A stretch of DNA of 64,000 nt from Geminicoccus roseus DSM 18922. Lineage in GTDB: Bacteria; Pseudomonadota; Alphaproteobacteria; Geminicoccales; Geminicoccaceae. Each line of letters opens with the position of its first letter. Within the stretch, counting starts at the first letter, position 1. The DNA is taken from NCBI RefSeq assembly GCF_000427665.1, contig NZ_KE386572.1, forward strand, positions 3,062,196 to 3,126,195, in the 5' to 3' direction. Below the pieces are notes generated by a model. The model searched no databases, was not told the origin of the DNA, and saw only the letters and a program-made list of their open reading frames with translations. The translations under genes and the position numbers were made by a program. This document shows, piece after piece, positions 16,481-38,150 of this stretch.

Positions 16481-16819
16481 TCAATCGGTTCTATGCCGCT
16501 GAAAGCCCGACAGATTCTCCAGACCAGCCGGAGTGATCTCCACCCCTTCGACCCTCGCCAGGGGCGGGCCCTGCCGGCACTGCCCGGCCAGGCGCTCCAG
16601 CGCCGCTGCAGGGCCCTGGACGTGAGCCTCGACCGAACCGTCCCGCCGGTTGCGGACCCAGCCGGTCAGCTTCAGGAATTGCGCCGCCTGGACCAGCCAG
16701 TCCCGGTAACCAACTCCCTGGACGCGACCGGTGATCCGCAGGCGCGAAGCCGTGACCTCGACAGGCTCTGTTCCTGCGGTGACATGGGGATCGGCGGCAT
16801 CATCTTGCGGTCTGGACAC
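16481..16819 (-). CDS. acyP: Acylphosphatase
   Basis: A 112-residue acylphosphatase, which hydrolyses carboxyl-phosphate bonds. The catalytic residues are R39 in GRVQGVGYRDW and N57 in GWVRNRRDGSVEAHVQG. The family is usually about 90 residues; the extra N-terminal 25 residues are acidic and may not all be translated. The GTG at 16819 is used because no better start is seen before the conserved RLRITGRVQG. It is transcribed alone, convergent with the methyltransferase gene. Confidence 0.9.
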   Translation of the reverse strand: MSRPQDDAADPHVTAGTEPVEVTASRLRITGRVQGVGYRDWLVQAAQFLKLTGWVRNRRDGSVEAHVQGPAAALERLAGQCRQGPPLARVEGVEITPAGLENLSGFQRHRTD

Positions 16820-17102
16820 CGAAAACTCCGTGGCGCATCACGTGGCGTTCGTGTATAGGGACAAGCGGAATGTGTCGCTACGCGAGAAGACGCCCTGTTC
16901 GTGACAGTCGGTTCATCTTTGGCTCTCTCATCGTTCTGCAGCGGTAAGGCGGTCGCGCCTCGCTTCTCCAGGCGTGTCGGGGCGGTCGGAGCAGGGCCCG
17001 TTGCATCAGACGGGTCACGCGATCTGCCTCAGACGACGCGCGCATCCCTTTCGCTCTTGACCGTACTCCCCACCCGCTTCCGCGGTTTTGCCGGACTCGC
17101 CG
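16820..17102. other. 283-bp divergent control region of acyP and the RRM gene
   Basis: No gene is seen here. On the plus side it becomes the leader of the RRM-protein gene. A TTGACC (17056-17061) is the best -35-like match but has no convincing -10, and the bases just before the RRM start lack a Shine-Dalgarno. On the minus side a TATAC-like element about 35 bp above acyP could be its -10. Confidence 0.4.
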
Positions 17103-17735
17103 ATGACTCGTAAGCTCTTCGTAGCCAATTTTCCCTATTCGACCACGCCTGAGGAACTCGAACAGCTCTTCGCCCCGCACGGCCCCGTCGTGGCCGTGAA
17201 GATCGCCACCGACCGCGAGACGGGTCGGAGCCGTGGTTTCGGCTTCATCGAGATGGAGACCGAAGAGGCTTGCGAGAACGCGATCCGTAAGATGGACGGC
17301 TTCCAGATGGCCGGTCGTGCCCTCGCGGTGCGCCAGGCCGAGGATCGTCGTCCCGCCGGTGGCCCCGGTGGTGACCGCGGTCCGCGTGGCGGCGGCTTCG
17401 GTGGCCCGCGCGGCGGCGGTGGCGGCTTCGGCGGCGACCGTGGCGGCTTCGGCGGCGACCGCGGCGGCTTCGGCGGCCCGCGTGGCGGCGGCGGTGGCGG
17501 CTTCGGCGGCCCCCGTGGCGGCTTCGGTGCCGAGCGTAGCGGTGGCGGCGGCTTCGGCGGCGACCGTGGCGGCTTCGCCGATCGTGCCCCGACCGGCGGT
17601 TTCGCTGACCGCGCGCCGGGCGGCTTCGACGACCGCGGCGGATTCGGCGAGCGTCCGTCCCGTGCCCCGGGCGGTGGTGCGCCGCGCGGCCGTGGCCGTG
17701 GCGACCGTGGTGGCTTCGACGACAACTGGAACTGA
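17103..17735 (+). CDS. RRM RNA-binding protein with a long glycine/arginine-rich tail
   Basis: A 210-residue protein with one RNA recognition motif (residues 1-80): RNP2 is LFVANF (5-10) and RNP1 is RGFGFIEM (44-51), both with the aromatic residues that stack on RNA. From about residue 85 to the end the protein is low-complexity, built of repeats such as [12 protein letters not shown] and GGPRGGGGG, ending in ADRAPTGG and [16 protein letters not shown]-like segments. Single-RRM glycine-rich proteins are known in cyanobacteria and some proteobacteria, often cold-induced, and bind single-stranded RNA. The RGG/FGG tail resembles those of eukaryotic RNA proteins that condense. It is monocistronic, closed by a strong terminator. 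The ATG at 17103 has no Shine-Dalgarno but fits the RRM fold exactly. Confidence 0.92.
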
Positions 17736-17766
17736 CCCCGGACGGGTTCAGTCGACCAGCAGGAAG

Positions 17767-17792
17767 GGGAGGGCTCGCGCCCTCCCTTTTTT
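17767..17792 (+). terminator. Rho-independent terminator of the RRM gene
   Basis: An 8-bp perfect stem, gggagggc (17767-17774) pairing with gccctccc (17779-17786), with a 4-base loop and six T residues after it (17787-17792). It lies 31 bp past the stop codon. This is the best intrinsic terminator in the window. Confidence 0.92.
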
Positions 17793-18292
17793 GTTGGTGA
17801 GCCGATGCACTGATGTGGTGCGCCGGGACGGACACATGGGCGCTGCTCCGCCTCGGAGATCAGCGCTTCCTGTCGACGAAACGCCGCATGTGGCGGGCGA
17901 CCGTCCAGAGTTGCCTGCGTTACTCTGTCGAGGACGCCTGCGAGCGTGTGTCCACCGGCGCTCAAGCTGGAAGACGGCCACGCATGTGATAGCCGTGACC
18001 GTTGCATAGGAACTTGCCGGCCTGGCCAGATCGAGGACGCGCTCGCACGCAGCAGGGAGCCACCGACGAGGCAGGTCAGGCTTTTCCTTGGCCGCTGCTC
18101 TTGCAAGCCATCCAGGGTACTGCCCTGCCCAGCCTGTCGCCTTGGCTCGAAAGCCAACGGCGGCGAACTTGGTCACGTGACAACACTGCGCGCTGCCGGG
18201 ACGTGAGCAGTACCCAGAGCAGGGCCTTTGCTCGCATCCCTGCTCGACAAAGACGGTCCTGGCGATGCGCCAGGACCCGGTACAAGCCTCGC
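17793..18292. other. 500-bp gap without a supported gene
   Basis: The stretch between the RRM terminator and the end of dppF shows no credible protein on either strand and no tRNA or known RNA motif. Only the hairpin near 18256-18276 is explained. Base composition is somewhat less GC-biased at third positions of any frame than in neighbouring genes, as expected for non-coding DNA or an old gene remnant. Confidence 0.5.
18256..18276 (-). terminator. Hairpin at the end of the dpp operon
   Basis: A 9-bp perfect stem (gtcctggcg / cgccaggac) with a 3-base loop lies 17 bp past the dppF stop. On the minus strand it is followed by CGTCTTTG, a weak U-tract. It is likely the operon's 3' end, or an RNA-stabilising hairpin. 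Confidence 0.55.
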
Positions 18293-19252
18293 TCAGTCGC
18301 GGCCTTCCTCCACGGCGTGGCAGGCCACCAGCTGGCGGTCGGCCGGGAGCAGCTTCGGAACCTCGATCCGGCAGCGCTCGTTGGCGAGCGGGCAGCGCGG
18401 ATGGAAGGTGCAGCCGGGTGGCGGTGCCAGAGGCGAGGGCAGTTCGCCGGTAACCTTGAGGCGCTCGCGCTTGCGCCGCGGATCGGCGACCGGCGTCGCG
18501 CCCAGGAGGGCGCGGGTATAGGGGTGGCGCGGGCGGGCGAAGATGGCTTCCTTCGGCCCCTTCTCCACGGCCTTGCCCAGATACATCACCATCACGTCCT
18601 GGGCGATGTGGCGCACCACCGAGAGGTCGTGGCTGATGAACAGGTAGGCCAGCTGGAACTCGTCCTGCAGGTCCATCAGCAGGTTCAGGACCTGCGCCTG
18701 AATCGACAGGTCGAGCGCTGAGACCGGCTCGTCCAGGACCATGATCTCCGGGTTGAGCATGAGCGCCCGGGCGATCGCGATGCGCTGCCGCTGGCCGCCG
18801 GAGAACATGTGCGGATAGCGGGCCGCCTGCTCCCGGCGCAGCCCGACCTTCTCCATCATCGCCAGGACCCGCTCGCGCCGCTCGCCGCTGTTCGTGCCGC
18901 CGGCGATCACCAGGGGCTCCGCCAGCGCATCCTCGATCTTGCGGCGCGGATTGAGGGAGCCGTAGGGATTCTGGAACACGATCTGCACCTTGCGGCGCAG
19001 TTCCGGCGTGACCTTGTCGGCGGGCTGGCCGTCCAGGCGCAGCTCGCCCGAACTCGGTGCCTCGATCAGGGTCACGATCCGGCCGAGCGTGGACTTGCCG
19101 CAGCCGGATTCGCCGACCACGGCCAGCGTCCGCCCGCGGTCCAGGGCGAAGCTCACCCCGTCCAGGGCCTTCACGGTGGCCGAGCCCGCAAACAGCCCGC
19201 GGCGCACGGTGTAGTGGCGCGTGAGGTCGGCCGCCTCGATCACGCGGCTCAT
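18293..19252 (-). CDS. dppF: Dipeptide ABC transporter ATPase (DppF-type)
   Basis: A 319-residue ABC ATPase, last gene of the operon. It has Walker [10 protein letters not shown] (residues 47-55), signature [14 protein letters not shown], Walker B IMVLDEP with SALDLS, and the Opp/Dpp C-terminal extension with cysteines ([14 protein letters not shown]). In some family members that cysteine motif holds an iron-sulfur cluster. It pairs with DppD to energise peptide uptake. The ATG at 19252 overlaps the dppD stop by 4 bp. Confidence 0.93.
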
Positions 19253-20217
19253 CGCTCGCCACCCAGTGGATAGTGGCACAATGCCTGGCCGAACTGCGGC
19301 CCGGCCGGCACCGGCTCGACCTTGACGCAGCGCTCGTCGGCATAAGGGCAGCGCGGGTGGAACAGGCAGCCGGACGGCTTGTCGAACTGGCCGGGCACCA
19401 CGCCCGGGATGGAGGCGAGGCGCGTGCCCTCCGCCGCGCGCTCCGGCAGCGCCGCCAGGAGGGCCGCGGTGTAGGGGTGGTGCGGGTGGTCGAACAGGCC
19501 GAGCACGTCCTGGCGCTCCACCTGCCGGCCGGCATACTGCACCACCACCCGCTGCGCAGTCTCGGCGACCACGCCCATGGCATGGGTGATCAGCACCAGC
19601 GCCATGCCGCGCTTTTCCTGGAGGTCGACCAGGAGGTCCAGGATCTGCGCCTGGATGGTCACGTCCAGCGCGGTTGTCGGTTCGTCGGCGATCAGGAGGC
19701 GCGGGTCGCAGGCGATCGCCATGGCGATCATCACGCGCTGGCTCATGCCGCCGGAGAGCTGGTGCGGGAACGAGGACAGGCGCTGCGCCGGGGAGGGGAT
19801 ACCCACCAGGGTCAGCAGCTCCACCGCCCGGTCGCGGGCCTGCCGGCGGTTCAGCCCCAGGTGCTGCCGGATGGATTCCTCGATCTGGAAGCCCACGGTG
19901 AAGCAGGGGTTCAGGGAGGTCATCGGCTCCTGGAAGATCATCGCCATGTCGGCGCCGGTGAGCGCACGGCGCTCGGCGCCGGACAGGCTGGCGAGGTCGC
20001 GGCCGTCGAAGGTGAGCCGGTCGGCGGTGATCCGGGCGGTGGGCGGCAGCAGCCCCATCACCGCCAGCATGGACACCGACTTGCCCGAGCCGCTCTCGCC
20101 CACCACGGCGACGATCTCGCCCTTGTCGACCGACAGGTCGACACCTTCCACGGCAGTGAACCAACCCGCGGCGGTCGCGAAGCGGACGGTCAGGTTGCGG
20201 ATCTCAAGGAGGCTCAT
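19249..20217 (-). CDS. dppD: Dipeptide ABC transporter ATPase (DppD-type)
   Basis: A 322-residue ABC ATPase: Walker A GESGSGKS near residue 40, Q-loop [11 protein letters not shown], signature [16 protein letters not shown], Walker [15 protein letters not shown], and the C-terminal oligopeptide-transporter motif with cysteines ([15 protein letters not shown]). The GGMSQR signature separates it from DppF. The ATG at 20217 overlaps the dppC stop by 4 bp; upstream extensions in frame overlap dppC and are not conserved. Confidence 0.93.
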
Positions 20218-33617: not shown

Positions 33618-33645
33618 TTGTAGTACTTCTTGGGCAAGTTAAGAT
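33618..33645 (+). promoter_or_regulatory. Candidate promoter of the riboswitch-hupE transcript
   Basis: TTGTAG (33618-33623) and TAAGAT (33640-33645) are separated by 16 bases. Transcription would start near 33652, right at the 5' base of the riboswitch, which supports the call. Confidence 0.5.
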
Positions 33646-33647
33646 CG

Positions 33648-33830
33648 AGCCGTCGACGGTTCCCGTTCAGGGACGCAAAAGGGAAAGCGGTGCGGGTCCG
33701 ACCCAAAGCCGCTGCTGCCCCCGCAACTGTCAGCGGTGAGTCCGTTCCCACCATGCCACTGGAAGCATGTCTTCCGGGAAGGCCGGGCCGGATCGTCCTC
33801 CGCGAGCCAGGAGACCTGCCATCGACGATC
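33648..33830 (+). promoter_or_regulatory. Cobalamin (B12) riboswitch
   Basis: The conserved elements occur in the right order. The closing stem pairs cgtcga (33651-33656) with tcgacg (33822-33827). An early ggttcccgttcaggg-like segment is followed by aaaagggaa, then a CCCCCGCAACTGT core (33717-33730), GCCACTGG (33755-33762), GGGAAGG (33776-33782) and the B12 box gccaggagacctgcc (33806-33820). B12 or adenosylcobalamin binding would repress the downstream gene. A 6-bp hairpin at 33841-33857 just before the hupE ribosome site is a likely switch for translation control. Confidence 0.95.
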
Positions 33831-33871
33831 GTTACGCCATGCCCTCGGGTGGAGGGCGGAAGGAATCCGCA

Positions 33872-38074: not shown

Positions 38075-38150
<76 letters not shown>

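Follow-up and report, generated by a model that had tools for sequence, protein, structure and literature searches.

A long-tailed glycine-rich single-RRM protein in Geminicoccus roseus and its relatives

Introduction

Bacterial proteins that join a single RNA recognition motif (RRM) to a glycine-rich C-terminal tail are already known, and here we analyze a long-tailed member of this known kind encoded by Geminicoccus roseus DSM 18922 (Alphaproteobacteria; Geminicoccaceae), within a 64,000-nucleotide stretch of contig NZ_KE386572.1 (assembly GCF_000427665.1; the whole stretch is hereafter called the window). Among the closest described systems are the single-RRM Rbps of cyanobacteria, whose C-terminal regions span 0 to about 130 residues and include, in Prochlorococcus, a tail with 66 glycines in 116 residues (PMC9333190). 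Synechocystis Rbp1 is needed for growth at 15 °C, and the non-glycine tail of Rbp3 directs its function (PMC9333190). Elsewhere in bacteria, RNA binding by RRM proteins has been reported (PMC12119571, PMC11697453, PMC9313427), as for RbpPg1 of P. gingivalis (PMC12119571) and for RbpB of B. thetaiotaomicron, a global RNA binder (PMC11697453). In humans, phase separation of CIRBP requires its RG/RGG region, which also binds RNA (PMC8197425). In the open-licence literature we found no paper that takes such proteins of Alphaproteobacteria or Proteobacteria as its subject, nor one on an RRM gene with hrcA.

The Geminicoccus gene stands alone, and its family genomes that have an ortholog carry one match each. 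Its product is probably a glycine-rich single-RRM RNA chaperone or mRNA-binding protein, to which the tail would add weak multivalent RNA contacts.

A single RRM is followed by a long RGG/FGG tail

The gene and its two parts are as follows.

17103..17735, + strand: coding sequence (CDS) of a 210-residue RRM / Gly-Arg-rich protein, with ATG at 17103 and TGA at 17733-17735; its ortholog is L002 of G. flavidas
17103..17342, + strand: RRM domain, residues 1-80 (Pfam match to PF00076 at residues 5-74), with a confident model and RRM matches in the PDB
17343..17732, + strand: low-complexity tail, residues 81-210, with 9 RGG and 6 FGG motifs and imperfect tandem repeats

A first-pass annotation, made from the letters of the sequence, had read the N-terminal part as a single RRM with intact RNP1 and RNP2, and our analysis bears this out. 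The match to RRM_1 (PF00076) scores 80.4 bits against a cut-off of 20.7, RNP2 is LFVANF (residues 5-10) and RNP1 is RGFGFIEM (residues 44-51), and an alignment of 18 family proteins shows no change at the aromatic residues F6, F46 and F48. The best NCBIfam model, NF058537 ('RNA-binding regulator'), reaches 88.7 bits and falls below its cut-off of 100, which places the protein outside that family. An AlphaFold2 model built from 18 family sequences gives residues 1-80 the order strand-helix-strand-strand-helix-strand with a mean predicted local distance difference test (pLDDT) score of 75-94 per ten-residue block, matching the beta-alpha-beta-beta-alpha-beta fold of an RRM. The top structure matches are eukaryotic RRMs, namely poly(A)-binding protein by sequence and Rna15 by fold (Foldseek), and the top 50 Foldseek matches include plant glycine-rich RNA-binding proteins (GR-RBPs), CstF-64, hnRNP A18/CIRBP and the bacterial structures 7jly and 7qzp. 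By sequence or fold, the PDB matches include the plant GR-RBPs 2mpu and 4c7q, hnRNP A18/CIRBP (5tbx) and P. gingivalis RbpPg1 (7jly); the A. baumannii RRM protein (7qzp) is a fold match.

The remaining 130 residues contain 59 Gly (45%), 20 Arg, 12 Asp, 12 Phe, 11 Pro and 8 Ala, and their DNA holds imperfect tandem repeats of 21 and 51 bases. The aromatic residues number 13 (12 Phe, 1 Trp) with no Tyr, and 14 acidic residues leave a net charge of about +6. In the AlphaFold2 model the ten-residue blocks of the tail have mean pLDDT values of 39-50, with most tail residues below 50, and we predict from this that the tail is disordered. The initial description of about 125 residues with a eukaryote-like Gly/Arg/Phe/Asp make-up thus holds in substance, and the make-up appears constrained (see below).

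In architecture, the protein agrees with the definition of a cyanobacterial type I Rbp, a small bacterial gene product with a single N-terminal RRM and then a glycine-rich C-terminal region (PMC9333190). The likeness is drawn from architecture, and the Geminicoccus tail is rich in RGG, FGG and Asp, whereas the tail of Rbp1 is 21 residues long and Rbp1 has a link to cold. Closer to hand, four single-RRM families of Pseudomonadota (f174, f56, f13 and f110) have the matching architecture with tails of up to 181 residues, although these tails have more GGGY and fewer RGG, and f174 often has two to five RRM matches per genome against one in the window's genome. Plant GR-RBPs and animal CIRBP likewise combine one RRM with a Gly-rich or RG/RGG tail and match in fold (2mpu, 4c7q, 5tbx), but they are eukaryotic and the similarity of the tails is one of composition. 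The predicted disorder and nine RGG motifs also give the tail the character of those in CIRBP-like RG/RGG proteins that form condensates. RbpPg1 and RbpB are comparable as bacterial RRM-1 proteins reported to bind RNA; RbpPg1, however, has 97 residues and so a short tail, and the Bacteroidota are said to lack Hfq (PMC12119571), whereas Hfq is present in nearly all Geminicoccaceae genomes.

The composition of the tail appears to be under constraint

To see how the tail evolves, we compared the window with the separately assembled genome of G. flavidas, whose ortholog has a 125-residue tail of like composition. The best aligned segment, residues 1-85, is 98% identical, and both reading frames stay open to a common C-terminal GGFDDNWN. 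For the RRM the ratio of nonsynonymous to synonymous change (dN/dS) is 0.029 (80 codons, dS 0.57, 2 amino-acid changes), and for the alignable part of the tail it is nearly as low at 0.048 (114 aligned codons, dS 0.43, 5 amino-acid changes), with the tail dN to be read as a lower bound because the aligner's placement of gaps in repeats maximises identity and repeats can homogenise. As this biases the value downward, we read it as a sign that composition is constrained and not as an exact ratio. The presence of the tail in the assembly of another species rules out an assembly error in the repeat, the possibility raised at first should the tail be absent from close relatives. Outside support comes from one assembly and not two, since the protein of L021 (genome G004) is identical to that of L002 and the two are probably the same record.

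Taken together, these features suggest how the protein would act. The RRM would bind single-stranded RNA through the RNP1 and RNP2 aromatic residues, while the disordered tail would make weak, sequence-nonspecific contacts with RNA through Arg and self-contacts through Phe and Arg, and such contacts could raise avidity for long or misfolded mRNA. Tail length would drift through in-frame gain and loss of repeats with composition held by selection, the Geminicoccus version being an expanded one.

The protein may thereby be an abundant RNA chaperone or mRNA-binding factor working beside Hfq and a cold-shock-domain protein. Of 31 family genomes 29 encode Hfq, among them all 22 of good quality, and the window's genome has one cold-shock-domain match; the RRM protein therefore comes on top of the usual chaperones and is no substitute for Hfq. 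As for abundance, in this GC-rich genome CGT is the codon for 18 of the 27 arginines of the RRM protein. In 44 further genes predicted in the window (chosen by length and GC by codon position, some possibly spurious) it is used for 89 of 1305 arginines, and in 22 open reading frames of a ribosomal-protein region, chosen likewise and two of them on the minus strand, for 64 of 398. Most of the excess falls in the tail (14 of its 20 Arg codons), and it could stem from high expression or from avoided self-pairing in a GC-rich repeat. It hints at high expression, but it is not a clean sign of it, because it exceeds what the ribosomal-protein region shows, and the G. flavidas ortholog has less of it (11 of 26).

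Glycine-rich tails are common among bacterial RRM proteins and vary in length

To place the protein among its relatives, orthologs were sought in the family and RRM_1 matches in wider samples. Orthologs were found in 25 of 31 Geminicoccaceae genomes (19 of the 22 of good quality). Among sampled genomes of at least 90% completeness, 40 of 387 from the class and 108 of 397 from the phylum have RRM_1, the phylum sample overlapping the class sample in part. Tails were then read from 89 phylum stretches (29 + 60 loci, among the matches listed), 40 new class stretches (26 + 14), the family loci and 18 further contig loci (one archaeal by its title). Of these 177 readings, one being a weak second stretch in L088, 164 had a stop in view, and tail length had a median of 33, a 95th percentile of 109 and a maximum of 181 residues.

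A set of 112 proteins was retained for tree building, 65 having been dropped for overlapping reasons (no stop in view in 13, a match starting after profile position 3 in 40, a start codon beyond range in 20, too weak a match in 8 and a truncated end in 7). Because the window's own family supplied the profile, this set leans towards its relatives. With a glycine-rich tail defined as at least 15 residues with 40% Gly, 70 of the 112 proteins have one, and 20 carry at least three RGG; tails are 100 residues or longer in 11 and 130 or longer in five, the window protein included (range 0-181). Nine RGG is the highest count in the set, equalled by the G. flavidas ortholog. The window protein is therefore at the long end of the length range and carries the most RGG, but it is of a common kind. 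The expectation of usually short tails in bacterial RRM proteins is half right at best, and the idea that this tail is unusual in kind is not supported, with glycine-rich tails the rule in the compared set and published cyanobacterial tails, those of Prochlorococcus, reaching about 130 residues (PMC9333190).

Tail length also changes often. In the Geminicoccaceae the median is 37 residues (range 21-130, n = 23), the other genera having a tail that is mostly shorter. Tails of at least 85 residues (18 rows) imply at least five gains or losses on well-supported branches, and nine, the fewest possible, on the best tree, which rests on 82 columns, leaves many forks open and was built without cyanobacterial sequences.

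These data bear on what the tail is for. It is possible, if on the unlikely side, that the protein is a condensate scaffold: its tail would bring about phase separation with RNA, like the RG/RGG tail of human CIRBP, and it would form or join RNA bodies under stress. The 20 Arg, 13 aromatic residues and record RGG count would fit, and RNA condensates (BR-bodies) have been described in alphaproteobacteria. The lack of Tyr, the 14 acidic residues and the net charge of about +6 argue the other way, as does the window's own genome, in which a search with PF05185, the one profile used, gave no match to the PRMT5 family, one eukaryotic way of tuning RGG tails; and most tails in the family are too short for scaffolding to look like the ancestral function.

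At the opposite pole, the RRM may be functional and the long tail a slippage-prone GC-rich repeat, tolerated as soluble and harmless. The wide spread of lengths in the family and in the 112-protein set, the frequency of length changes, the imperfect 21- and 51-base repeats and the dispensable tail of Synechocystis Rbp1 are what neutral expansion would produce. We nevertheless consider it unlikely, as the low tail dN/dS at a dS of 0.43 and the shared GGFDDNWN end point to selection on the amino-acid make-up.

Our preferred explanation, an RNA chaperone or mRNA-binding protein with a contributing tail, has several points to its discredit. RNP1 ends in Met, at a position where the consensus has Phe or Tyr. 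The downward bias of the tail dN/dS and the ambiguous source of the CGT excess, both set out above, weaken two of its supports. Finally, the 21-residue glycine-rich tail of Rbp1 is dispensable for growth at 15 °C and leaves RNA preference unchanged relative to the tail-less Rbp2 (PMC9333190), so that such tails need not matter.

Either way the family is informative. If the tail matters, orthologs with closely related RRMs and tails of 21 to 130 residues form a natural test of the effect of RGG-tail length on RNA binding and condensation, set in a genome without a PRMT5-family match. If it does not, the same series would show that near-neutral tails are possible and would counsel caution in reading condensates from composition.

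Two loci in the survey depart from the usual form. The tail of the RRM protein of L143 (genome G760) is rich in Arg and Trp and not in Gly, as if frameshifted in the repeat. At L088:1489-2355 (genome G304, contig C59), an open frame joins an RRM (PF00076), a glycine-rich stretch and two cold-shock domains (two PF00313 stretches); of the three genomes in the genus, one had this fusion. Its stretch stops short of the usual flank and that of a sister species ends in the glycine tract, so that an assembly join is possible.

The RRM gene lies near hrcA in much of the family

Comparison of gene order revealed that the RRM gene shares its strand with hrcA and precedes it by at most 4 kb in 16 of the 20 Geminicoccaceae genomes in which both genes could be placed, by coordinates in all and also by tblastn in 13 (coordinates alone for G003, G021 and G023). 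Five of the 25 genomes with the RRM gene were left unjudged, as hrcA was not found in G005 and G029 and the RRM gene is at a contig end in G006, G014 and G020. The gap to hrcA, which encodes the heat-shock repressor, is less than 400 nt in ten loci (L022, L033, L035, L037-L039 and L041-L044) and 1268 nt in L023, L025 and L027; the HrcA of L033 was confirmed by Pfam. All six loci of genus g12 also carry an Hsp20 gene, about 1.3-1.5 kb upstream of the RRM gene (a 60-residue piece from L026 was confirmed as PF00011).

This neighbourhood is suggestive of a role in temperature stress, and the protein could be a heat-shock-linked RNA protein that works with the HrcA regulon, in which case a cold-response reading would be wrong or incomplete. 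Along with the linkage in 16 of 20 genomes and the g12 Hsp20 genes, four genomes (G000 and G004, both of the window's genus, and G008 and G009) have to be counted in which no hrcA linkage was found, and the linkage may be plain conservation of gene order in a stable neighbourhood. In the window, the sequence scanned, no CIRCE-like site was found at up to 3 mismatches from the consensus. On balance, a heat-shock role seems doubtful.

The upstream region is conserved between two Geminicoccus species

The surroundings of the gene comprise the following features.

16835..17102, no strand: intergenic region before the gene; identity to G. flavidas 84.5%
17757..17796, + strand: intrinsic terminator, an 18-pair hairpin entering a T tract (z -5.6), with a counterpart in L002 (z -5.9)
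16481..16819, - strand: acylphosphatase gene (PF00708, Pfam), a divergent neighbour outside the feature
18293..19279, - strand: oligopeptide-type ABC transporter gene, the convergent downstream neighbour

With a divergent and a convergent flank and no operon partner in the window, the RRM gene stands alone, as the first-pass annotation had it, and the terminator hairpin it had noted is there. A simple scanner did not list the hairpin, probably because its stem enters the T tract. The minus-strand open reading frame at 17135-18157 and other overlapping frames were set aside, on inspection and with no search run on them, as mirrors of the GC-rich coding strand.

The 268 upstream bases, whose longest runs identical to G. 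flavidas are 45 and 41 bases, are conserved between the two species about like coding DNA: the RRM CDS is 86.3% identical, the two neighbouring CDSs 75.9% and 83.1%, and the 165 downstream bases 51.6%. The region probably holds promoter(s) and a leader and is shared with the divergent gene, part of it perhaps serving acylphosphatase; no sigma-70-type site was found in it, and its predicted structure is unremarkable. By BLAST in the family its long match was to the congener only, and an 81-base query from its upstream part matched once in each of two Geminicoccus genomes and not in the other 29 family genomes, so that it is no repeated regulon element there.

This conserved upstream region recalls the conserved 5' untranslated region (UTR) boxes of cyanobacterial rbp genes (PMC9333190), likened here without sequence comparison, and Rbp1, with its like architecture, is required in the cold. 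A cold response of the Rbp1 type nonetheless strikes us as quite improbable, since in much of the family the gene has heat-shock neighbours and Rbp2, a class I Rbp, has little role in cold despite the 5' UTR boxes of its gene (PMC9333190). It is no better supported than the heat-shock link.

The boldest synthesis would hold that RGG/FGG tails on one conserved RRM protein were expanded in bacteria several times over, each time independently, to make RNA condensates. The Geminicoccaceae protein, descended from a heat-shock (hrcA) neighbourhood, would then be a convergent counterpart of the temperature-induced GRP/CIRBP proteins, which tune RNA condensation in temperature stress, with tail length an evolved dial; we regard this as distinctly unlikely. 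The likeness of the cyanobacterial proteins to the eukaryotic ones is reportedly a matter of probable convergence, going by the title of Maruyama et al. 1999.

A leader hairpin that sequesters the Shine-Dalgarno sequence was considered for the window gene and rejected, its leader being less structured than shuffled sequences (z +2.0) and that of L002 no more than weakly different from them (z -0.4). The 201-nt window leader scores z -0.32, and in a consensus fold of the two Geminicoccus leaders 2 of 76 pairs changed on both sides.

Elsewhere, five of the 25 leaders scored (L026, L030, L031, L034 and L040, each taken over roughly 110 bases ahead of the start codon) have z values of -3.4 to -5.3 relative to shuffles, and in most of the five a CAGGG pairs with a CCCTG that adjoins a Shine-Dalgarno-like GGAG, making translation control by a hairpin possible in these relatives. 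An Rfam scan of the window found no matches apart from two that are far from the RRM gene, a cobalamin riboswitch at 33640-33837 (+ strand) and a tRNA gene at 38078-38150 (- strand).
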